Assembly: GCF_013402875.1 (NCBI RefSeq)
Contig: NZ_CP058579.1
Span: 1,612,001 to 1,676,000, forward strand
Source: Halorarum salinum
GTDB lineage: Archaea > Halobacteriota > Halobacteria > Halobacteriales > Haloferacaceae
Length of the DNA: 64,000 bases
Direction of reading: 5' to 3'
Shown: positions 613-26,864 of the stretch, one piece after another
Position numbering within the stretch: position 1 is the first letter of the stretch
Layout of the letters: every line of letters starts with the position of its first letter
Notes under the pieces: model-generated
The model's database searches: none
What the model was told of the DNA's origin: nothing
The model's input: only the letters and a program-made list of their open reading frames with translations
Translations under genes and position numbers: made by a program

Positions 613-2661
613 ATGGCGGGTGCATTCGACTACGCGCCGGCGATCGTCCTGCTCCCGTTCCTGTCGTTCCTGCTCTCGCTCGGGGGCTCGCTCCACGGCG
701 AGGGGAAGGGGGTCCTCCCCAAGGGCGGCGCGCTCGGGGGGATCGCGGCGACCGCCGGTTCGCTGCTGCTCTCGATCTGGGTGGCACTGACCGTCGCGGG
801 CGGGAACGTTCACGACGAGACGATCTACACGTGGGCCGCCGCGGGCGACCTCGAACTCACGTTCGGGCTGCTGCTCGACCCGCTCTCGGCGCTGATGCTC
901 GTCATCGTCTCGCTGATCGCGCTGCTGGTCCACGTGTTCTCGCTCGGCTACATGAACGACGAGGGCGAGACGGGCCTCCCGCGCTACTACGCCGGACTCG
1001 GCCTGTTCACCGCCTCCATGCTCGGGTTCGTCGTCGCCGACAACCTGCTCATGGCGTTCATGTTCTTCGAGCTCGTCGGGCTCTGCTCGTTCCTGCTCAT
1101 CGGCTTCCACTTCCGGGAGCCCGGCCCGCCGTCGGCCGCGAAGAAGGCGTTCCTCGTCACCCGCTTCGGGGACTACTTCTTCCTCGTCGGCGTGGTGGCC
1201 GTCTTCGCCACCTTCGGCACGGCGCAGTTCGCGGGCGAGGGGTCGTTCCCCGCGCTCGCGGCCGCTGCGCTCGACGGGAACGCCTCGGTGACCACGTACC
1301 TCGGGCTCGCCCCCGAGGCGTGGTTCACGGTCGTCGGCCTGCTGATCCTCGGCGGGGTCGTCGGCAAGTCCGCGCAGTTCCCGCTCCACACCTGGCTCCC
1401 CGACGCGATGGAGGGCCCGACTCCGGTCTCGGCGCTCATCCACGCGGCGACGATGGTCGCGGCGGGGGTCTACCTCGTCGCCCGGATGTACGGCTTCTAC
1501 GCCGTCTCCCCGACCGCGCTCGGCGTCATCGCGCTGGTCGGCGGGTTCACCGCGCTGTTCGCGGGCACGATGGGGCTCGTGAAGCGCGAACTGAAGCAGG
1601 TGCTCGCGTACTCCACCATCTCACAGTACGGCTACATGATGCTCGCGCTGGGCGCGGGCGGCTACGTCGCGGCGACGTTCCACCTCATGACCCACGCGTT
1701 CTTCAAGGCGCTGCTGTTCCTCGGCGCCGGGTCGGTCATCATCGCGATGCACCACAACGAGAACATGTGGGACATGGGCGGGCTGAAGGGGAAGATGCCC
1801 GTCACCTACTACACGTTCCTCGCCGGGTCGCTCGCGCTCGCGGGCATCTTCCCGTTCGCGGGGTTCTGGTCGAAGGACGAGGTGCTCTACGAGGCGCTCG
1901 CGCACGGCCTCGGCGGGACGCCGCTGCTGTTGCTCGGCTACGCGATGGGGCTGCTCGCAGTGCCCGTCACGGCGTTCTACACGTTCCGGATGGTGGCGCT
2001 CACCTTCCACGGCGACGCACGGACCGACCAGGCCGCCTCGCCCGAACCGGTCGGCTGGAACGTGAAGGCGCCCCTCGTCGTGCTCGGCGTGCTCGCGGCC
2101 ACCGCCGGCTTCGTCAACATGGTGCCGGTCCAGACGCTCACGGGCGCACACATCGACTTCCTGCACTCGTGGCTCGACGGGGGCTTCGAGGGGCTGACCG
2201 CCCACCACTACGGGGACGTGACCGGCCAGTTCGCCGGCTACTCCACGGGCACGCTGGCGGGGAGCGAACTCGCCACGGTGCTTGCCGGCGCCGGCCTCTC
2301 GCTCGCGCTGGCGCTGCTCGGCGCGGGGCTCGCGTACTCGCTGTACGCGGTTCCGGAGCCCGAGGAGCACACCGCGAGGCTCGGCTCCCTGCAGGACGTG
2401 CTGTACAACAACTACTACCAGGACGAGTACCAGGTGTTCATCGCGACGCGGATCGTCGCGCCGCTGTCCCGCGCCGCGGACGCGTTCGACCAGGGCGTGA
2501 TCGACGGCACGGTCAACGCCGTCTCCTCCGTGAGCCTGTTCTCGAGTTCGCGGATCCGCCGCGTCCAGACCGGCGTCGTGAGTAACTACGCGGCGCTGCT
2601 CACGCTCGGCCTGACGGTGCTTCTCATCGCCTTCGGGGTCTACGGAGGCTGGTTACTGTGA
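613..2661 (+). CDS. nuoL: NADH-quinone oxidoreductase subunit L
   Basis: This 682-aa multi-pass membrane protein is an antiporter-like subunit of complex I. The N-terminal Oxidored_q1_N region includes the stretch near LDPLSALMLVIVSLIALLVH. The core proton-translocating module shows FPLHTWLPDAMEGPTPVSALIH and the lysine/histidine-containing helix TMGLVKRELKQVLAYSTISQ. A long C-terminal extension (about residues 500-682) matches the lateral helix and extra helix specific to NuoL rather than NuoM or NuoN. The start is ATG at 613, one base after the nuoK stop. It overlaps the nuoM GTG start by four bases. Confidence 0.97.
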   Translation: MAGAFDYAPAIVLLPFLSFLLSLGGSLHGEGKGVLPKGGALGGIAATAGSLLLSIWVALTVAGGNVHDETIYTWAAAGDLELTFGLLLDPLSALMLVIVSLIALLVHVFSLGYMNDEGETGLPRYYAGLGLFTASMLGFVVADNLLMAFMFFELVGLCSFLLIGFHFREPGPPSAAKKAFLVTRFGDYFFLVGVVAVFATFGTAQFAGEGSFPALAAAALDGNASVTTYLGLAPEAWFTVVGLLILGGVVGKSAQFPLHTWLPDAMEGPTPVSALIHAATMVAAGVYLVARMYGFYAVSPTALGVIALVGGFTALFAGTMGLVKRELKQVLAYSTISQYGYMMLALGAGGYVAATFHLMTHAFFKALLFLGAGSVIIAMHHNENMWDMGGLKGKMPVTYYTFLAGSLALAGIFPFAGFWSKDEVLYEALAHGLGGTPLLLLGYAMGLLAVPVTAFYTFRMVALTFHGDARTDQAASPEPVGWNVKAPLVVLGVLAATAGFVNMVPVQTLTGAHIDFLHSWLDGGFEGLTAHHYGDVTGQFAGYSTGTLAGSELATVLAGAGLSLALALLGAGLAYSLYAVPEPEEHTARLGSLQDVLYNNYYQDEYQVFIATRIVAPLSRAADAFDQGVIDGTVNAVSSVSLFSSSRIRRVQTGVVSNYAALLTLGLTVLLIAFGVYGGWLL

Positions 2662-4178
2662 TACTCGAGACGCTCATCGGAGTGACGTTCGTCGCCGCAC
2701 TGGCAACCTTCCTCACGCCGGACGAGCACGCGGAACGGGTCGCGTTCGTGCTCAGCCTGCTTCCGGTCGTCGGGAGCCTCTACGCGTGGTACGCGTTCGA
2801 CGGGACCGGAAACGCCCTCCTCGACGGCGGGAGCCTCGCGTTCGCGACCCAGATCGACTGGCTCACCGTGGGCGGCTACACGCTCCAGTGGTTCGTCGGC
2901 CTCGACGGCATCAGCCTCCCGCTGGTCGTGCTCTCGACGGTGCTCACCTCGCTGGCGATCCTGTCGGCGTGGACGCCCATCGACGTGCGACAGAGCCAGT
3001 TCTACGGGCTCATGCTGTTCATGGAGGCGAACCTCATCGGCGTGTTCACCGCGCTCGACTTCTTCGTCTGGTTCGTGTTCTGGGAGGCCGTGCTCGTCCC
3101 GATGTACTTCCTCATCGGGGTCTGGGGCGGCCCGCGCCGCAAGTACGCGGCGATCAAGTTCTTCGTCTACACGAACGTCGCCTCGCTGGCGATGTTCATC
3201 GGCTTCATGGCGCTCGTGTTCAACCTGCCCGTCGACAGCTTCGGGCTGCCGGCGATCGCCGGCGCGCTGCGGGCCGGCGAACTCGGCGGCTTCCTCGGCC
3301 TGACGCCCGGGACGCTCGCGGCGGTCGCGTTCGCCGCGATGTTCTTCGGCTTCGCCGTGAAGGTCCCGGTCGCCCCGTTCCACACGTGGCTGCCGGACGC
3401 CCACGTCGAGGCGCCCACGCCGGCCTCGGTGATGCTGGCTGGCGTCCTCCTGAAGATGGGGACCTACGCCCTGCTGCGGTTCAACTTCACCATGATGCCC
3501 GACGTCGCCGCCCAGTTCGCGGTGCCCATCGCGATCCTCGCGGTCGTGTCGGTCATCTACGGCGCGATGCTCGCGCTGGCCCAGCAGGACCTCAAGCGCA
3601 TCGTCGCCTACTCGTCGGTCTCCTCGATGGGCTACGTCATCCTGGGACTCGTCGCCTACACCGAACTCGGCGTCGGCGGCGCCACCTTCCAGATGGTCGC
3701 CCACGGGCTCATCTCCGGGCTGATGTTCATGGCGGTCGGCGTCATCTACAACGTCACCCACACGCGCATGCTCGGCGACATGGCCGGCATGGCGGACCGG
3801 ATGCCCGTCACCGCGGGCATCTTCGTCGCCGGCGCGTTCGGCTACATGGGTCTCCCGCTCATGGCCGGCTTCGCCGCGGAGTTCTTCATCTTCCAGGGCT
3901 CGTTCACGTCGACGGTCCTCCCGGCGGCGCCGCTGTTCACCGCGACGGCGATGTTCGGCATCGTCATCGTCGCGGGCTACCTGCTCTGGGCGATGCAGCG
4001 CACCCTGTTCGGCGAGTTCAGCCTCGAGACCGACTACGAGGTGACGCGCGCGCAGTTCCACGACACGGCGCCGCTCGCGGCGCTCCTGCTGTTCACCATC
4101 GCGCTCGGGGTCGCCCCCGAGACGTTCTTCGACATGATCACCGACGCCGTCGTCCCGATGCTCGGAGGTGGTGCGTAG
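2658..4178 (+). CDS. nuoM: NADH-quinone oxidoreductase subunit M
   Basis: This 506-aa antiporter-like membrane subunit begins at a GTG that overlaps the nuoL stop (GTGA), a typical translational-coupling arrangement. It contains the characteristic conserved Glu helix (FVWFVFWEAVLVPMYFLIG), the discontinuous-helix motif PFHTWLPDAHVEAPTPASV and the lysine helix QQDLKRIVAYSSVSSMGY. These residues form the proton channel in bacterial NuoM. About fourteen hydrophobic segments are visible. The stop codon TAG directly abuts the ATG of nuoN. Confidence 0.97.
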   Translation: MILETLIGVTFVAALATFLTPDEHAERVAFVLSLLPVVGSLYAWYAFDGTGNALLDGGSLAFATQIDWLTVGGYTLQWFVGLDGISLPLVVLSTVLTSLAILSAWTPIDVRQSQFYGLMLFMEANLIGVFTALDFFVWFVFWEAVLVPMYFLIGVWGGPRRKYAAIKFFVYTNVASLAMFIGFMALVFNLPVDSFGLPAIAGALRAGELGGFLGLTPGTLAAVAFAAMFFGFAVKVPVAPFHTWLPDAHVEAPTPASVMLAGVLLKMGTYALLRFNFTMMPDVAAQFAVPIAILAVVSVIYGAMLALAQQDLKRIVAYSSVSSMGYVILGLVAYTELGVGGATFQMVAHGLISGLMFMAVGVIYNVTHTRMLGDMAGMADRMPVTAGIFVAGAFGYMGLPLMAGFAAEFFIFQGSFTSTVLPAAPLFTATAMFGIVIVAGYLLWAMQRTLFGEFSLETDYEVTRAQFHDTAPLAALLLFTIALGVAPETFFDMITDAVVPMLGGGA

Positions 4179-5678
4179 ATGTCCGTGATGGAGGGTCTGG
4201 TCGCGCTCTCGCCGGCGCTGGCGCTCGCGGTCACGGGCCTGCTGGTGCTGCTCGTCAACACCGTCTACCCGAACGACACGAAGGCGACGCTGCTCGCGGT
4301 GCTCTCGGCGGGCGGCGCGCTCGCCTCCCTCGCGGCGGCGGGCGCCCTGCTGACGGGTGCGGGTGCGGTCCTGAGCGGTCCGGACGACAGCGTCGCGCTG
4401 TACGCCGACGCGGTCGTCGTCGACGGCATGTCACTGTTCTTCGCGGCCGTGTTCGCCTCCGTGACGGCGCTGGTCGTCGTCGCGAGCTTCGACTACCTCG
4501 CCGAGAACCCGCACCGCGCGGAGTTCTACAGCCTCACGCTGTTCGCCGCGACCGGCATGGCGCTGATGGCCTCGGCGAACTCGCTCGCGGTCGCGTTCAT
4601 CGCGCTCGAACTGGCCTCGCTGCCGTCGTACACGCTCGTCGCGTTCCTCAAGTCGAACCGCGGGAGCGTCGAGGCGGGGCTGAAGTACTTCCTCGTCGGC
4701 GCGCTCTCCTCGGCGGTGTTCGTCTTCGGGATCTCGCTCGTCTACGCGGCGACCGGGAGCCTCCTGCTCCCCGAGGTCGCGTCCGGCCTGGCCGAGGCGG
4801 GCGACGGGCTCGCGGGCGTCGCGGGCATCGGCATCCTGATGATCGCCGGCGGGGTCGCGTTCAAGACCGCCTCCGTCCCGTTCCACTTCTGGGCGCCGGA
4901 GGCGTACGAGGGCGCGCCCGCGCCCGTCAGCGCGTTCCTCTCGTCGGCCTCGAAGGCCGCCGGCTTCGCGCTGGCGTTCCGCGTGTTCGTCGTCGGCTTC
5001 CCGCTCGCCGACGTGAGCGCCTCGGTCGACTGGGTGCTGCTGTTCCAGGTGCTCGCGGTCGCCACGATGACGCTCGGCAACTTCGCGGCCGCGACCCAGG
5101 AGAACGTCAAGCGCATGCTGGCGTACTCCTCCATCGGCCACGCGGGCTACGCGCTCATCGGCCTCGCCGCGTGGACCCAGGCCGCCGGCGGTTCGGTGCT
5201 CGGCGCGTCGATGGCCCACCTGCTGGTGTACGGCTTCATGAACACCGGCGCGTTCCTGTTCGTCGCGCTCGCCGAACACTGGGAGATCGGCCGGACGTTC
5301 GAGGACTACGCGGGACTCGGCGCCCGCGCGCCGATGGCCAGCGTGGCCATGTCCGTGTTCATGTTCTCGCTCGCGGGGCTGCCGCCGTTCGGCGGCTTCT
5401 TCTCGAAGTACTTCCTGTTCGCGGCGGCCGTGGGCGCGGGCTACTGGTGGCTCGCGGCCGTCGGCGCGATCAACAGCGCGCTGTCGCTGTTCTACTACAG
5501 CCGCGTCGTGAAGGCGCTCTGGTTCGACGAGGCGACGACGGAGTTCGACCTCGGCGAGACGCCGACGGCGCTGTACGCCGCGGTCGTGTTCGCCGCGGTC
5601 GCGACGCTGCTGCTGCTGCCCGGCTTCGGCCCGGTCATCGAGACGGCCGAGGCGGCCGCGGCGGCGCTCGTTCCCTAG
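4179..5678 (+). CDS. nuoN: NADH-quinone oxidoreductase subunit N
   Basis: This 499-aa membrane subunit has the third antiporter-like fold of the complex I arm. Key signatures are the early conserved Glu helix (VAFIALELASLPSYTLVAF), the VPFHFWAPEAYEGAPAPVS motif and the lysine helix TQENVKRMLAYSSIGHAGY. The ATG immediately follows the nuoM stop, so it is the last gene of the visible operon. After its stop the sequence becomes non-coding, with short T runs (GGGTTTCTCG, GGGTTTTCG) that could serve as an archaeal terminator. Confidence 0.97.
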   Translation: MSVMEGLVALSPALALAVTGLLVLLVNTVYPNDTKATLLAVLSAGGALASLAAAGALLTGAGAVLSGPDDSVALYADAVVVDGMSLFFAAVFASVTALVVVASFDYLAENPHRAEFYSLTLFAATGMALMASANSLAVAFIALELASLPSYTLVAFLKSNRGSVEAGLKYFLVGALSSAVFVFGISLVYAATGSLLLPEVASGLAEAGDGLAGVAGIGILMIAGGVAFKTASVPFHFWAPEAYEGAPAPVSAFLSSASKAAGFALAFRVFVVGFPLADVSASVDWVLLFQVLAVATMTLGNFAAATQENVKRMLAYSSIGHAGYALIGLAAWTQAAGGSVLGASMAHLLVYGFMNTGAFLFVALAEHWEIGRTFEDYAGLGARAPMASVAMSVFMFSLAGLPPFGGFFSKYFLFAAAVGAGYWWLAAVGAINSALSLFYYSRVVKALWFDEATTEFDLGETPTALYAAVVFAAVATLLLLPGFGPVIETAEAAAAALVP

Positions 5679-6196
5679 CCGTCGGGGTTTCTCGTTCGAC
5701 GGTTCCGCGGGTTTTCGTTCGGCAGTTCTCGATCGATGAGCGTCGCGGCTGCCGTGGTGGTCTCGAACGTTCCCGCGGCTCTCGGTTTCGGGGCTAGTCC
5801 GTTGGTCGTGCCGTAGCTCCCGAAAGCCCCAGCGGTTCTCGACTCGGGGCCTCGCTGCGCTCCTTAGTCGCTCACTCCGTTCGCTCCTTGCGGTGCTAGC
5901 TTCGTCCGCCTTCGCCGAGAACCGCGGCCCCTTTCAGTCCCACCCGGACCGCCCCTCGTCCTCCCTTACCTCGGAGCACGCTCCTCGGAACTCACCCTCG
6001 CTCGCAGGCTCGCTCGCGTGACCAGCCTCCTGCGCTCCTCGCCTCGGTCGCTCACTACGCTCGCTCCCTCGGCTCCGGGTGCTCGTCCCTCGCGCGCGTG
6101 TGCTCGCGCCACAGGGGCGCTCGCGTCGCACGCGCCGGCCGGTTCGTCGTCCAGTCGTCGCGACCCGGGGAGGCCGACGCGAACCCCACACCCGCC
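5679..6196. other. Non-coding interval after nuoN
   Basis: No convincing gene is seen in this 518-bp stretch between nuoN and the convergent beta-helix gene. It holds a hairpin-bounded repeat (5819-5945). From about 5946 to 6130 there is low-complexity sequence made of variants of CTCGCTCGC and CGCTCCCTCG, a composition common in haloarchaeal intergenic DNA. Open frames here lack coding character (Arg/Ser/Pro-rich). Confidence 0.7.
5819..5945 (+). repeat. Hairpin-bounded intergenic repeat, copy A
   Basis: The element starts with CCCGAAAGCCCC and ends with GCGGCCCCTTTCAGTCCCACCC-type sequence. Just inside the ends a perfect 10-bp inverted repeat, GCGGTTCTCG (5832-5841) and CGAGAACCGC (5916-5925), brackets about 74 bp of CTCGCTGCGCTCC-type sequence that closes with CGTCCGCCTTC. 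A second full copy lies at 53037-53210 and a copy lacking the middle at 54578-54612. Confidence 0.75.
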
Positions 6197-21091: not shown

Positions 21092-22093
21092 TCAGAACAG
21101 GCCGACCAGGAACCCGACGCCCATCGCGCAGAGCACGACCGCCGAAACCGTCGGGAAGTGCTCGGCGTACCGCTCCATCCGGTCCTCGAACCGCTCGTAG
21201 CCCGCGACGAGCGCGAGCGTCAGGGCGGTGATGACGGCCACGACCGTCAGCGCGTACGCGAGCATCAGCCCCAGACAGTGGTCCGAGCCGGCACAGATGG
21301 CGATGATCTCGAACTCCTCCTCGTGGGCGAACCCGAGCACGAACGCGGAGACGGCGATGCCGTACAGCCCGTCCTCCGCCGAGGGGGAGCCGTGGTCGTG
21401 CGCGTGGCCGCCGTCCCCGCCGACGAGCGGAAGCGCCGCCGCGAGGCGGGCGAGGACCCCGCCGTCGTGGGCGTCGTGGTCGTGTGCGATCCCGTGCTCG
21501 TGGGAGCGACCATCCTCATCGTGGGAATGCCCGTAGGTACCTCCGTGTGAGTTATCGTGCGAGTGCCCGCGGGAACCGCCGTGTGCGTGCCCGTCGGGGG
21601 TCGCGAACGCCACGTCCTCGTGCAACCGACCGGCAGTGGAGCCGTCCCCCTCGTGGTGGTGTGCGTGATCGGTCCCGTGCGAGTGCGGTCGCCCGTGGTC
21701 GTCGCCGTGCGAGTGTGAGTCGCCGTTTCCCTCCTCGTGGGAATGTGAGTGCCCGCCGCCCCGGTACTCCCGGATCCCGAGCAGGATCAGGAGGACGCCG
21801 GCGACGACGCCGATGGGCGACCCGACCGGGACGCCGGCGACGGTGAGCGGTTCGGTCAGCCCGTCGAGGTCGAGTTGCGCCTTCAGCAGGAAGAACGCGC
21901 CGACGACCGCGAGACTGGAGAGCAGGTGTCCGACCCCGATGACGAGGCCGGCGACCAGGCCGGCGAGCCAGGCGTTCGCCCGGTCGAAGGCGTAGGCGGC
22001 GGCGATGGGCCAGCCGTGGCCCGGTTCGGCGCCGTGGACCGCGCCGAGCGCGAGCGCCCCGAGCAGCAGGCCGGGGGCGACGTCGTGGAGCAT
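21092..22093 (-). CDS. Nickel/cobalt transporter of the NicO/RcnA type with a histidine-rich loop
   Basis: The 333-aa membrane protein begins with ALALGAVHGAEPGHGWPIAAAYAF, corresponding to the HxxEPGH motif of RcnA/NicO metal transporters, and continues with about six helices. Residues about 110-240 form a hydrophilic loop extremely rich in His, Gly and Asp (HSHSHEEG, HAHHHEGD and similar), likely to bind metal. The C-terminal half contains FVLGFAHEEEFEIIAICAG, a second conserved acidic/His motif. It is divergent from nikR, which fits nickel; whether it imports or exports cannot be decided from sequence. Confidence 0.87.
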   Translation of the reverse strand: MLHDVAPGLLLGALALGAVHGAEPGHGWPIAAAYAFDRANAWLAGLVAGLVIGVGHLLSSLAVVGAFFLLKAQLDLDGLTEPLTVAGVPVGSPIGVVAGVLLILLGIREYRGGGHSHSHEEGNGDSHSHGDDHGRPHSHGTDHAHHHEGDGSTAGRLHEDVAFATPDGHAHGGSRGHSHDNSHGGTYGHSHDEDGRSHEHGIAHDHDAHDGGVLARLAAALPLVGGDGGHAHDHGSPSAEDGLYGIAVSAFVLGFAHEEEFEIIAICAGSDHCLGLMLAYALTVVAVITALTLALVAGYERFEDRMERYAEHFPTVSAVVLCAMGVGFLVGLF

Positions 22094-22194: not shown

Positions 22195-22593
22195 ATGCGG
22201 ACCAGCCTGAACGTCCCCGACGGGGCGCTCGCGGAGTTCGACGCGGTGGCGGAGGCCGAGGGGTTCGAGTCGCGCTCGCGTGCGGTCAGGGAGGCGATGG
22301 CCGAGTACGTCGAGCGGCACAGCCGGCTGGAGGAGGCGACCGGCGAGGTCGCCGCCGTCATCGCGTTCGACTACGTCCACGACGAGGTCATCCGGGAGCT
22401 CCACGACGTCCAGCACGAGTACGGGGACGTCATCACCACGACCTCCCACGTCCACCAGGAGGGGTGGTGCCTCGAGACCGTGTTCTGCCGGGGGGACGTG
22501 GGACGCGTCCGGGAACTCGTGTACCGCCTGCGCGACTTCGACGCCGTGCGTCGCGTCCGCGTCCTCTCGCTCGTCGACGGGGACGACCGGTGA
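22195..22593 (+). CDS. nikR: Nickel-responsive transcriptional regulator NikR
   Basis: The 132-aa protein has an N-terminal ribbon-helix-helix DNA-binding part (MRTSLNVPDGALAEFDAV, then SRSRAVREAM) followed by an ACT-like metal domain. The high-affinity nickel ligands of NikR are recognisable: His in DVQHEYGD, two His in TTSHVHQEG and Cys in GWCLETVF. NikR forms a tetramer that binds DNA when Ni is loaded. The divergent NicO-type transporter is its probable target. Length and spacing of the ligands match the family closely. Confidence 0.93.
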   Translation: MRTSLNVPDGALAEFDAVAEAEGFESRSRAVREAMAEYVERHSRLEEATGEVAAVIAFDYVHDEVIRELHDVQHEYGDVITTTSHVHQEGWCLETVFCRGDVGRVRELVYRLRDFDAVRRVRVLSLVDGDDR

Positions 22594-23827: not shown

Positions 23828-23988
23828 CGGTCGTGGGTTTCCGTGCTGTGGGATAAGTTTTGGGCGTTCAACGGTCGCGGTGGGCCGGCCGGAAGAACAC
23901 GGCGAGGCGGGTCGACCGGGGTACGGCGGGTGGATGGGCCGGCCCGGTACGGTAGGGTTTTCCCGCAGGGCCCCGACCTGCGTTCGTG

Positions 23989-25452
23989 ATGCGTCGGCTG
24001 GTCCTCGGCTGCGGGGCGGTCGGACACGACGTCGTCGCGTCGCTCTCGACCCGCCCCGGCGAGCTCCACGTCGTGACCGACGACAGCGGGCGAGCGACGG
24101 CGCTCCGCGAGGAGAACGTGAGCGCCGTCGAGGCCGACCCGACCGACCCCTCGACGTACCCGGACCGGACGGACATGGTCGTCGTCGCCGGCGAGCGCGC
24201 CGCCCCGAACCGCGCCGCGACGAGGAACGCCCGGGAACGGTTCCCCGGGGCGTTCGTCCTCGCGTACGCCGGCGACGACGCCAACGAGGCGGATCTGGAG
24301 GCGCTCTCGGGGGTCGCGGACCGCGTCGTCGACCCCGTCGGCGTGACAGCCGAACGCGTGCTCGACGCGGTCCGTGACGAACCGGCCGAGCGGATGTGGA
24401 AGCTGCTCCGCGCGCTCCGCGGCGTGGAGGGGACGCTCGCGGTCGTCGCCCACGACAACCCGGACCCGGACGCGATCGCGTCGGCGGTCGCGCTGGTCAG
24501 GCTCGCGGAGTTCGTCGGGACCGACGCCGAGGCGTGCTACTACGGCGACATCTCCCACCAGGAGAACCGCGCGCTCGTCAACCTCCTCGAACTGGAGATG
24601 CGGAACCTCGACCCCGAGACGGACCCGCGGGACGAGTACGACGCGTTCGCGCTCGTGGACCACTCCCGCCCCGGCGTGAACGACGGCCTCCCCGAGGACG
24701 TCCGCCCGACGATCGTGATCGACCACCACCCGCCGCGGCTCCCGGTGGAGGCGGAGTTCATCGACGTCCGTTCGGACGTGGGCGCCACGTCGACGCTGCT
24801 CGCCGAGTACCTCGAACGGTTCGGGCTCGACCCCGGCGAGCGGGTCGCCACCGCGTTGCTGTACGGGATCCGCATCGACACGAAGGACTTCACCCGCGAG
24901 ACGTCGGACGCGGACTTCGACGCGGCGACGTTCCTCCTCCCCCACGCGGACTCGGCCTCGCTCGCGCGCGTCGAGTCCCCGAGCAAGAGTTCGGAGGTGC
25001 TCGACACGATCGGCCGCGCCATCCGGAACCGCAGGAGGCGCGGCGAGACGGTCGCCTCCTTCGTGGGGGAGCTCTCGGACCGGGACGCGCTCGCGCAGGC
25101 GGCCGAGCAGCTCCTCGAAATGGAGGGGGTGACGACGACGCTCGTCTACGGCTTCTCCGAGGGGACGGTGTACGTCTCCGGCCGGGCCCGCGGGGCCGAC
25201 GTCGACCTCGGCGAGACGCTTCGGGACGCGCTCGGCCAGATCGGGAGCGCGGGGGGACACGCCGACATGGCCGGCGCACAGGTCCCGCTCGGCATCCTCG
25301 GGGCGGTCGAGGAGGGCGAGTCGGAGTCGGTGGCCGAGATCGTCGAGGAGTTCATCGCCGGCCGGTTCTTCGAGACGCTCGCGGACGCCCCCTCGGCGCC
25401 GACACACGAACCGGACCGCGAGGTCCCGTTCCCCGACGAGGACGACGACTGA
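23989..25452 (+). CDS. DHH-family phosphoesterase with N-terminal RCK/TrkA-N domain
   Basis: The 487-aa protein joins three parts. Residues 1-125 form a Rossmann NAD-binding RCK_N-like domain (LVLGCGAVGHDVV). A DHH domain carries NPDPDAIASAVAL, ALVDHSRPG and the name motif VIDHHPPR, which bind two Mn ions. A C-terminal DHHA1 domain has the substrate motif GGHADMAGAQV. DHH/DHHA1 enzymes hydrolyse phosphodiester bonds in small nucleotides (oligoribonucleotides, pApA, c-di-AMP) or act as RecJ-like nucleases. The fused NAD-binding domain suggests allosteric control. Its exact substrate cannot be read from the sequence. ATG 23989 follows a possible GTG at 23986. Confidence 0.9.
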   Translation: MRRLVLGCGAVGHDVVASLSTRPGELHVVTDDSGRATALREENVSAVEADPTDPSTYPDRTDMVVVAGERAAPNRAATRNARERFPGAFVLAYAGDDANEADLEALSGVADRVVDPVGVTAERVLDAVRDEPAERMWKLLRALRGVEGTLAVVAHDNPDPDAIASAVALVRLAEFVGTDAEACYYGDISHQENRALVNLLELEMRNLDPETDPRDEYDAFALVDHSRPGVNDGLPEDVRPTIVIDHHPPRLPVEAEFIDVRSDVGATSTLLAEYLERFGLDPGERVATALLYGIRIDTKDFTRETSDADFDAATFLLPHADSASLARVESPSKSSEVLDTIGRAIRNRRRRGETVASFVGELSDRDALAQAAEQLLEMEGVTTTLVYGFSEGTVYVSGRARGADVDLGETLRDALGQIGSAGGHADMAGAQVPLGILGAVEEGESESVAEIVEEFIAGRFFETLADAPSAPTHEPDREVPFPDEDDD

Positions 25453-25629
25453 GCGTCGGTCGTGACCCGCCGGGGGCGACCTCCGCGAACCCCAACCGTT
25501 GATATCCCTGGGGCGCAATCTCCGGACGAAAGCCGGCGGCCCCGGATCCGACCCCCTCGACCATCCGATGAACGTACTACCTCCGGAACGGACGACGGCT
25601 CCCGTGCCTGCGCCGACCTGCCGAACAGC

Positions 25630-26451
25630 ATGACGCTCTCGAACGGCAGCGACGACCTCTCGCTCGACATGCGCCGCGCCAAGGTCAAGGAGTACATGAC
25701 CCGCGACGTGGCGACGGTGTCTCCCGACGAGACGGTCGGGGAGGTCTCGAAACTCGTCGTCGAGAGCGACGGCCACAACGGCTTCCCGGTCACGGACGGC
25801 CGGACGGTCGTCGGCTTCGTCAGCGCGCGGGACCTGCTGCGCGCGGACCCCGACGCCCCGCTTTTCACCGTGATGACCGACGACATCATCGTCGCCCACC
25901 CCGACATGAACGTCACCGACGCCGCGCGGGTGATCCTCCGGTCGGGCATCCAGAAGCTCCCGGTCGTCGACGACGCGGGCAACCTCGTGGGCATCATCTC
26001 GAACACGGACGTGGTGCGGAGCCAGATCGAGCGCGCGACCCCCGAGAAGGTCGGGAAGCTGATGCGGACGCTGGAGGAGATCCACGACGTGACGCTGACC
26101 GAGGAACGGCGGACGGTGGCGCTCGCGGACCTCGTCCCGACGCAGGCGCGGGTGTACGCCGACGAACTGGAGGGGCGCCACTACGAGCTGAAACGCGGAC
26201 TGGCCGAGCCCCTCGTCGTCATCGACAACGGCGGGACCCTCGTCCTCGCCGACGGTCACCACCGGGTGATGGCCGCCGCCCGCGCCGACGTCGACGAGAT
26301 GGACGCGTACGTCATCGTCCTCGGGGAGCCGGTCGACCTGGGTATGCAGAAGACGGCGCGCAAGGAGGGGCTGGAGTCGATCGACGACATCGAAGTGGTC
26401 GACTACGCCCGCCACCCGCTGGTGGAGACGACGAAACGGTTCCAGAACTGA
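25630..26451 (+). CDS. CBS-pair protein fused to a ParB/sulfiredoxin-like domain
   Basis: The 273-aa protein has two CBS motifs (about residues 15-135: VKEYMTRDVATVSPDETVG and FTVMTDDIIVAHPDMNV), the usual adenosyl-nucleotide-sensing Bateman module. The C-terminal half contains LVLADGHHRVMAA, the DGHHR phosphate-binding motif of ParB/Srx-type NTPase or CTPase domains. This suggests nucleotide-gated activity, but the reaction is unknown. It follows the RCK-DHH gene in the same direction, 177 bp away. ATG 25630 was chosen because the upstream frame is Arg/Pro-rich. Confidence 0.88.
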   Translation: MTLSNGSDDLSLDMRRAKVKEYMTRDVATVSPDETVGEVSKLVVESDGHNGFPVTDGRTVVGFVSARDLLRADPDAPLFTVMTDDIIVAHPDMNVTDAARVILRSGIQKLPVVDDAGNLVGIISNTDVVRSQIERATPEKVGKLMRTLEEIHDVTLTEERRTVALADLVPTQARVYADELEGRHYELKRGLAEPLVVIDNGGTLVLADGHHRVMAAARADVDEMDAYVIVLGEPVDLGMQKTARKEGLESIDDIEVVDYARHPLVETTKRFQN

Positions 26452-26491: not shown

Positions 26492-26719
26492 TCACTCGAC
26501 GTCGAACTCGTCCATCCACTCCGCCGCGAGCAATTCGGCTGCCTCGCGGTCCTCACACGCCTCCCGCCGGTAGGACGGTCCCTCCGGCGCCTGTTCCAGG
26601 ACGTCGAGTCGGACGACGCTGCCGCCGTCGGACCGCTCACGAACCCTGACGGTGGCGAGGCCGTCCGCGCGCTCGTGCTCGTCGTACGGACCGTCGGTTT
26701 CGACGGGTTGCCAGCTCAC
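26492..26719 (-). CDS. Small acidic haloarchaeal protein
   Basis: The 75-aa protein from GTG 26719 reads as a small alpha/beta domain (GLATVRVRERSDGGSVVRLDVLEQAPEGPSY, then EAAELLAAEWMDEF). The pattern resembles short conserved haloarchaeal proteins of unknown function (DUF7543-like, from memory). The GTG start gives the compact domain; the longer frame adds a Cys/Arg-rich leader without coding character. Confidence 0.65.
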   Translation of the reverse strand: MSWQPVETDGPYDEHERADGLATVRVRERSDGGSVVRLDVLEQAPEGPSYRREACEDREAAELLAAEWMDEFDVE

Positions 26720-26864
26720 GCAAGGGTCCTCGTGGCCCGCTACTGTCAATCGGCCGGTTCGGCGTCGCGGCTGCCGGCCGAGCGGGTCGGTCCGGACGCC
26801 GTCGCACACCCGGCGACGGCTCCGTACCGACGTGGCGGAGGCGGGCGCGTCGCCGGCGCGCCCG

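Follow-up and report, generated by a model that had tools for sequence, protein, structure and literature searches.

RCK-DHH-DHHA1 proteins of Halobacteria as candidate c-di-AMP phosphodiesterases, examined from a two-gene locus of Halorarum salinum

The locus and its two genes

We examined a 64,000-nucleotide stretch of the genome of Halorarum salinum (RefSeq assembly GCF_013402875.1, contig NZ_CP058579.1, positions 1,612,001 to 1,676,000 of the forward strand), referred to below as the window, in which a gene for a protein combining RCK_N, DHH, and DHHA1 domains is followed, in the same direction, by a gene for a protein with a CBS pair and a ParB-type domain. A preliminary description made from the sequence alone had proposed the two as a nucleotide-signalling pair and as candidates for the turnover of cyclic di-AMP (c-di-AMP). 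This nucleotide is present in Haloferax volcanii, where the cyclase gene dacZ could not be deleted (PMC6741144); it is essential in that organism and its level must be tight. The phosphodiesterases for c-di-AMP and its linear product pApA were stated to be unknown in 2021 (PMC8646023), as was the degrading enzyme in PMC8305020, and no identified haloarchaeal c-di-AMP phosphodiesterase was found in the literature searched, mostly by titles and abstract openings. The features of the locus, in window coordinates, are as follows.

23989 to 25452, plus strand: RCK_N-DHH-DHHA1 phosphoesterase, family A, candidate c-di-AMP/pApA phosphodiesterase (Pfam, PDB profile, fold search, invariant catalytic residues, cyclase co-distribution)
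23989 to 24336, plus strand: RCK_N (TrkA_N) domain, with GxGxxG kept and Thr30 in place of the acidic residue after beta-2 (TrkA_N 42.7 bits, alignment column counts)
24442 to 25356, plus strand: DHH and DHHA1 domains, with the HDNPDPD, VDHS, DHH, GIRIDT, and GSAGGH motifs intact (Pfam and alignment)
25669 to 26451, plus strand: protein with a CBS pair and a divergent ParB-type domain; start at ATG 25669 likely, at ATG 25630 possible; found in 116 of 116 Halobacteria
26107 to 26406 (limits approximate), plus strand: ParB-type domain, with invariant PTQ, DEL.GR.YE, EP, and DGHHR and with HPL near the C-terminal end (profile and alignment)

The first gene, of the family that we designate A, runs from ATG 23989 to a stop at 25452 and specifies 487 residues; the start is correct or off by one codon, GTG 23986 lying just before it (open reading frame 23986 to 25452). 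TrkA_N (residues 5 to 116), DHH (152 to 295), and DHHA1 (357 to 456) all scored above the Pfam cut-offs, in agreement with the fusion originally described; TrkA_N is the sole Pfam domain ahead of DHH, and the N-terminal half is not of the GdpP type. The glycine motif of RCK_N is present as GCGAVG. The metal-binding and DHH residues H155, D159, D161, D224, D245-H246-H247, and D297, together with the GGH of DHHA1 (G422-G423-H424), were found in all 77 family-A proteins aligned, and the protein has the residues that mark the DHH-DHHA1 phosphodiesterase superfamily. When the PDB was searched with a profile of 15 family-A proteins, the c-di-AMP phosphodiesterase 9n0l was the top match (E 1.9e-20), followed by GdpP (E 2.3e-16) and then by Mn-pyrophosphatases. 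A fold search with an AlphaFold model (mean predicted local distance difference test score 84, predicted template modelling score 0.49) returned GdpP with pApA (5xsp; E 4e-21), the TM1595 phosphodiesterase, the Deinococcus radiodurans RecJ-like protein, DhhP, and Rv2837c. These nearest sequences and folds place the core of the protein without settling its substrate.

For the second gene, an open reading frame from GTG 25462 to 26451 had been listed, which is N-terminally overlong. Similarity to relatives begins at about ATG 25669, which makes a start at GTG 25462 unlikely and the intergenic gap about 216 nt (177 nt if ATG 25630 is used), not 10 nt. The CBS pair, in two stretches, scored 98.6 bits in Pfam. 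The ParB-type domain scored 18.8 bits against ParBc_2, below the cut-off of 23.6, although a relative at locus L136 reached 28.8; a PDB search with a profile of 17 such domains retrieved ParB (4umk; E 7e-5) and, more weakly, the free serine kinase 5x0j (E 0.08). PTQ, DEL.GR.YE, EP, and DGHHR were kept in 30 of 30 CBS-ParB proteins, from Halobacteria to other classes. The domain, which the preliminary description had recognized with its DGHHR motif, is real yet divergent. The canonical ParB CTPase clamp has a GERR P-motif, a helix-turn-helix domain, and a C-terminal dimer domain (see also PMC12704722); in CBS-ParB, DGHHR replaces GERR and the Pfam scan returned no helix-turn-helix family. The fold search with a CBS-ParB model was uninformative for the ParB part, the best 50 matches being CBS-pair proteins.

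A second RCK-DHH protein with complementary decay

A paralogue in the same genome, which we designate B, had been overlooked.

Contig C1, 2500510 to 2501949 (L139, 3411 to 4850), minus strand: paralogue B, with damaged DHH/DHHA1 motifs and intact RCK

RCK-DHH matches numbered two to five per genome in 53 of 53 Halobacteria and one in each non-halobacterial genome listed with a match. Paralogue B was present in 116 of 116 Halobacteria, at 59 to 100% identity to the copy in the window's own genome; family A spans 48 to 100%. We scored every extracted sequence for an RCK signature (G7, G9, G12, and an acidic residue 30) and for a DHH/DHHA1 set (H155, D159, D161, D224, D245, H246, H247, D or E at 297, G422, G423, and H424). 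In family A the DHH set was intact in 78 of 78 proteins and the RCK signature in only 6 (partly lost in 72), whereas in paralogue B the RCK signature was intact in 23 of 23 and the DHH/DHHA1 set in none; both sets were intact in 27 of 28 non-halobacterial single copies, the exception carrying E in place of D224. Among the RCK columns of family A, G9 was kept in 58 and G12 in 53 of 77 proteins. Residue 30, at the end of RCK beta-2, where we take an acidic residue to bind the ribose of nicotinamide adenine dinucleotide (NAD), was Asp in 6 of 77 family-A proteins, in 17 of 17 B proteins, and in 17 of 17 single copies, and is Thr in the window protein. The NAD-binding RCK domain of the preliminary description is therefore only partly borne out: the glycine motif is there, but the acidic residue is not, and most of the family has lost part of the signature. 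Damage in paralogue B usually affects the first Gly of GGH and the last His of DHH, which presumably has a functional role in that motif and is mostly replaced by Tyr or Phe. Pfam scores for TrkA_N, DHH, and DHHA1 (43, 46, and 46 bits in A; 75, 30, and 28 in B; 87, 59, and 52 in a single-copy relative; more precisely, 42.7, 74.9, and 87.3 for the three TrkA_N domains and 46.1 for DHHA1 of the window protein) point to the same complementary decay independently of the choice of residues.

In a tree of 51 sequences, family A (support 99/95), paralogue B (100/99), and the single copies (95/81) formed three monophyletic groups; as drawn, B stands beside the single copies and A apart, with long branches as the only outgroups. 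Given the copy numbers, a duplication in Halobacteria would be the simplest reading. Loss of the RCK part in genomes of genus g2 (Halorubrum-like) was considered and rejected, since five of six fetched loci keep it and the short match starts after a variable linker. The cyclase gene dacZ lies 10 to 12 kb from paralogue B in both genomes of the window's genus (its own and G026), but a general rule of dacZ adjoining B was likewise rejected, as no cyclase match was found in the 16 remaining B loci that were fetched, covering about 7 to 9 kb on each side. A PRC-barrel gene adjoins B, downstream, in most of 17 loci.

That haloarchaea encode DHH candidates for c-di-AMP turnover is not a new idea: HVO_0756, HVO_0990, and HVO_1690 of H. 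volcanii are tabled as predicted c-di-AMP phosphodiesterases, citing He et al. 2020 (PMC8305020). Family A probably corresponds to HVO_0990, judging from its position at the nuo operon and from the nuo tag numbers, and paralogue B probably corresponds to HVO_1690, judging from the PRC-barrel gene next to B and the description of HVO_1691 as a PRC protein (PMC8406309). HVO_0990 and HVO_1690 rise together under hypochlorite (PMC10294847), which, if these assignments are right, would fit joint action of A and B.

Gene order and distribution with the diadenylate cyclase

Conservation of the pair across Halobacteria, which the preliminary description had singled out for checking, proved extensive. 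When each protein was searched in 116 Halobacteria genomes, both were found in all 116, which excludes chance, and the RCK-DHH gene stood directly before the CBS-ParB gene on the same strand in 89 genomes of seven families, with 60 to 568 nt (median 151) between the aligned parts. In five further genomes the two genes are co-directional and no more than 2.8 kb apart; in the other 22 the genes are on different contigs (10), on opposite strands (9), or far apart (2), or no best RCK-DHH match was listed (1; G021), and these 22 include every one of the 14 genomes of genus g2. Family A accounts for 62 of 80 named loci (identity of at least 46%), and CBS-ParB is the neighbouring gene in 54 of the 62; among those where it is not are the five named Halorubrum loci (L184, L186, L193, L196, and L200). 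By tblastn, NuoN of a complex-I-like operon is encoded directly upstream of 30 of the 62, and of 22 loci that were fetched, 18 have a NuoN-type gene in the vicinity. In the window this operon, though directly upstream in many Halobacteria, lies 18 kb upstream of the pair.

2649 to 5675, plus strand: nuoM (2649 to 4175) and nuoN (4182 to 5675) of a complex-I-like operon (tblastn, NuoN Pfam, gene order)

Outside Halobacteria the pair was adjacent in none of the 52 genomes that have both genes with comparable coordinates (closest, 16 kb), and no RCK-DHH gene was present in 18 CBS-ParB loci with flanks of up to 5 kb. In 9 of these 18, CBS-ParB is directly followed by hisE (phosphoribosyl-ATP pyrophosphohydrolase, PF01503), so different lineages pair CBS-ParB with different genes. 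Loci of this kind include L121, L131, L136, L137, and L138 (about 4690 to 6115); in L131 and L138 the two genes overlap by 4 nt.

The distribution of RCK-DHH was compared with that of the diadenylate cyclase. In 294 genomes sampled from the phylum, the cyclase domain (PF02457, E 1e-3) was found in 263 and RCK-DHH (profile A2, E 1e-60) in 264; 253 genomes had both, 10 the cyclase only, 11 RCK-DHH only, and 20 neither. Fisher p values, which ignore kinship, were 3e-16 overall, 7e-7 within family f13, and 4e-7 for the non-halobacterial genomes other than those of family f25, but the weight of the co-distribution lies less in these values than in the pattern of joint absence: neither gene is present in any of the 10 genomes of family f25 (99% complete), and genus g57 comprises 2 genomes with both and 8 with neither. 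Eighteen of the 20 double-negative genomes, from f25 and g57, were checked and all 18 retain two to five other DHH proteins; thus, the loss of RCK-DHH is specific. The window's own genome has one diadenylate cyclase. RCK-DHH therefore tracks the cyclase across the phylum, which makes it likely that the family takes part in c-di-AMP turnover.

CBS-ParB, scored as a control in the same genomes (E 1e-60), behaved differently. Its association with the cyclase had a p value of 1.0 within f13, of 0.25 outside Halobacteria without f25, and of 1e-4 overall, the last being driven by f25 and Halobacteria. All 10 genomes of g57 keep it, including the 8 with neither cyclase nor RCK-DHH, and many genomes with cyclase and RCK-DHH are without it. 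CBS-ParB was consequently rejected as a c-di-AMP partner, and of the proposed signalling pair the RCK-DHH half holds up, whereas the other half conflicts with this distribution and with the missing adjacency outside Halobacteria. CBS-ParB is deeply conserved and independent of RCK-DHH, with which it shares a locus in Halobacteria; it probably senses nucleotides in a job other than c-di-AMP turnover, and it may be co-expressed with family A.

Of the other genes near the pair, one for a DUF7543 protein (26492 to 26809, minus strand) lies directly downstream of CBS-ParB and convergent with it. A NikR-type regulator (22195 to 22593; Pfam NikR_C) has beside it, on the opposite strand, a gene for a His-rich membrane protein, probably a nickel or cobalt transporter (21092 to 22093).

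Candidate function, alternatives, and known systems

We suggest that family A is a catalytic RCK-DHH-DHHA1 hydrolase that degrades c-di-AMP and/or pApA in Halobacteria and arose by duplication, and, from the sequence comparisons described, we regard this as a reasonably probable explanation. Family A would hydrolyse c-di-AMP and/or the linear product pApA by a two-metal mechanism, as do other DHH-DHHA1 phosphodiesterases. One archaeal RCK-DHH enzyme may have been duplicated in Halobacteria, after which family A would have kept catalysis while its nucleotide-binding RCK signature decayed, and paralogue B would have kept the RCK signature while losing parts of the active site, such that catalysis and sensing were divided between A and B. 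Domains, motif states, gene order, and distributions are what the comparisons show, whereas the substrate, a sensing role of B, and any contact between A and B are inferred from them. The joint loss with the cyclase singles out one family from several DHH candidates, and the opposite decay of the two paralogues distinguishes the catalytic candidate (A) from the candidate regulator (B), which belong together in tests. The most interesting outcome lies beyond the pair originally described, in paralogue B and the proposed division of roles.

Several observations weigh against this interpretation. Of 17 B proteins, 2 keep DHH, and D297 is replaced by Glu in all 17; as 6 of 17 single copies have the same replacement, it is not decisive. 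The tree has three groups and its root is not placed, so the duplication in Halobacteria is a conjecture from copy number. G137 (99% complete) has RCK-DHH without cyclase and G121 (97%) has cyclase without RCK-DHH, most other discordant genomes being incomplete assemblies. The co-absence outside Halobacteria involves the single-copy relative and not family A itself, and the joint losses may number only two to four events; all sampled Halobacteria have the cyclase, A, and B, and nothing therefore discriminates inside the class. Finally, another DHH protein with intact-looking motifs, the L003 type, gives strong matches to about 97 of the 116 Halobacteria genomes.

L003, 916 to 2082 (contig C1, 3015288 to 3016454), minus strand: L003-type DHH-DHHA1 protein with a hydrophobic N-terminus and no RCK, second candidate phosphodiesterase

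A stronger version of the split, which we put forward tentatively and hold to be somewhat less probable than its converse, is that an ancestral one-chain, nucleotide-gated c-di-AMP hydrolase was divided into obligate partners, an RCK-blind hydrolase A and a sensing pseudo-hydrolase B, the latter universal and the better conserved of the two. The two would assemble through RCK and DHH contacts, and NAD or another nucleotide bound to B would set the rate at which A destroys c-di-AMP. If true, the split would tie c-di-AMP to redox state, and the nuo operon upstream of A fits.

It is doubtful, by comparison, that family A is a general nanoRNase/pAp phosphatase of the NrnA kind or a short-DNA/RNA exonuclease, linked to the cyclase through clearance of pApA. 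DHH-DHHA1 enzymes often have two functions, the fold matches include NrnA, Rv2837c, and the D. radiodurans RecJ-like protein and the sequence matches Rv2837c/NrnA, and HVO_0990 and HVO_1690 are classed under DNA recombination/repair in the hypochlorite proteome (PMC10294847); however, joint loss with the cyclase in complete genomes would be unexpected for a housekeeping nanoRNase, and c-di-AMP phosphodiesterases rank first for family A by sequence profile and by fold. A single signalling module, in which CBS-ParB reads the adenine nucleotide state and controls the hydrolase, is unlikely: the co-directional adjacency in 89 Halobacteria of seven families speaks for it, as does the presence of HisE, another adenine-nucleotide hydrolase, beside CBS-ParB in half of the non-halobacterial loci, but the pair is adjacent in 0 of 52 other genomes and apart in all 14 of g2, the distributions mismatch, and the genes do not overlap. 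We consider it rather improbable that the L003-type or another DHH protein is the real haloarchaeal c-di-AMP phosphodiesterase and that family A does something else; the motifs of the L003 type look intact and its N-terminal hydrophobic stretch recalls membrane-bound GdpP, yet about 19 of the 116 Halobacteria lack it or have only a very divergent form, and every one of these carries both A and B. Very improbable is a free serine kinase of the SerK/SbnI type under CBS control, which we rejected: CBS-ParB has DGHHR in common with SerK, which also appeared in the domain-profile search, but at the position of SerK Glu30, which we take to be catalytic (Glu in 5x0b and 1vk1; 5x0e and 5x0j have Ala or Gln), all 30 of 30 CBS-ParB proteins have Gln, making SerK-type kinase chemistry unlikely. 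The window's own genome also encodes, on a 239-kb contig, a stand-alone DHH-DHHA1 protein (L001; contig C2, about 119760 to 120950) in which RRET replaces the usual D-T motif.

With the phosphodiesterases GdpP, TM1595, DhhP, and Rv2837c, which provide its best fold and sequence matches, family A shares the DHH and DHHA1 core and the metal-binding motifs, at about 20% identity over the core, and its own activity is a prediction. GdpP is membrane-bound, with PAS and degenerate GGDEF domains, and in family A these are replaced by RCK_N. CBS-ParB resembles SerK (TK0378) in its ParB-type fold and DGHHR and differs from it in the invariant Gln at the position of Glu30 and in the fused CBS pair. A 2025 survey of the ParB-CTPase fold describes fusions of the same architecture, the CBS fusion being the commonest in archaea and occurring chiefly in Methanobacteriota and Haloarchaea; the sections consulted do not mention RCK-DHH or HisE as neighbouring genes (PMC12704722). 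The HVO candidates are in print as predictions alone, and to these we add that RCK-DHH is lost jointly with the cyclase and that A and B show complementary decay, two results that are new within the literature searched.

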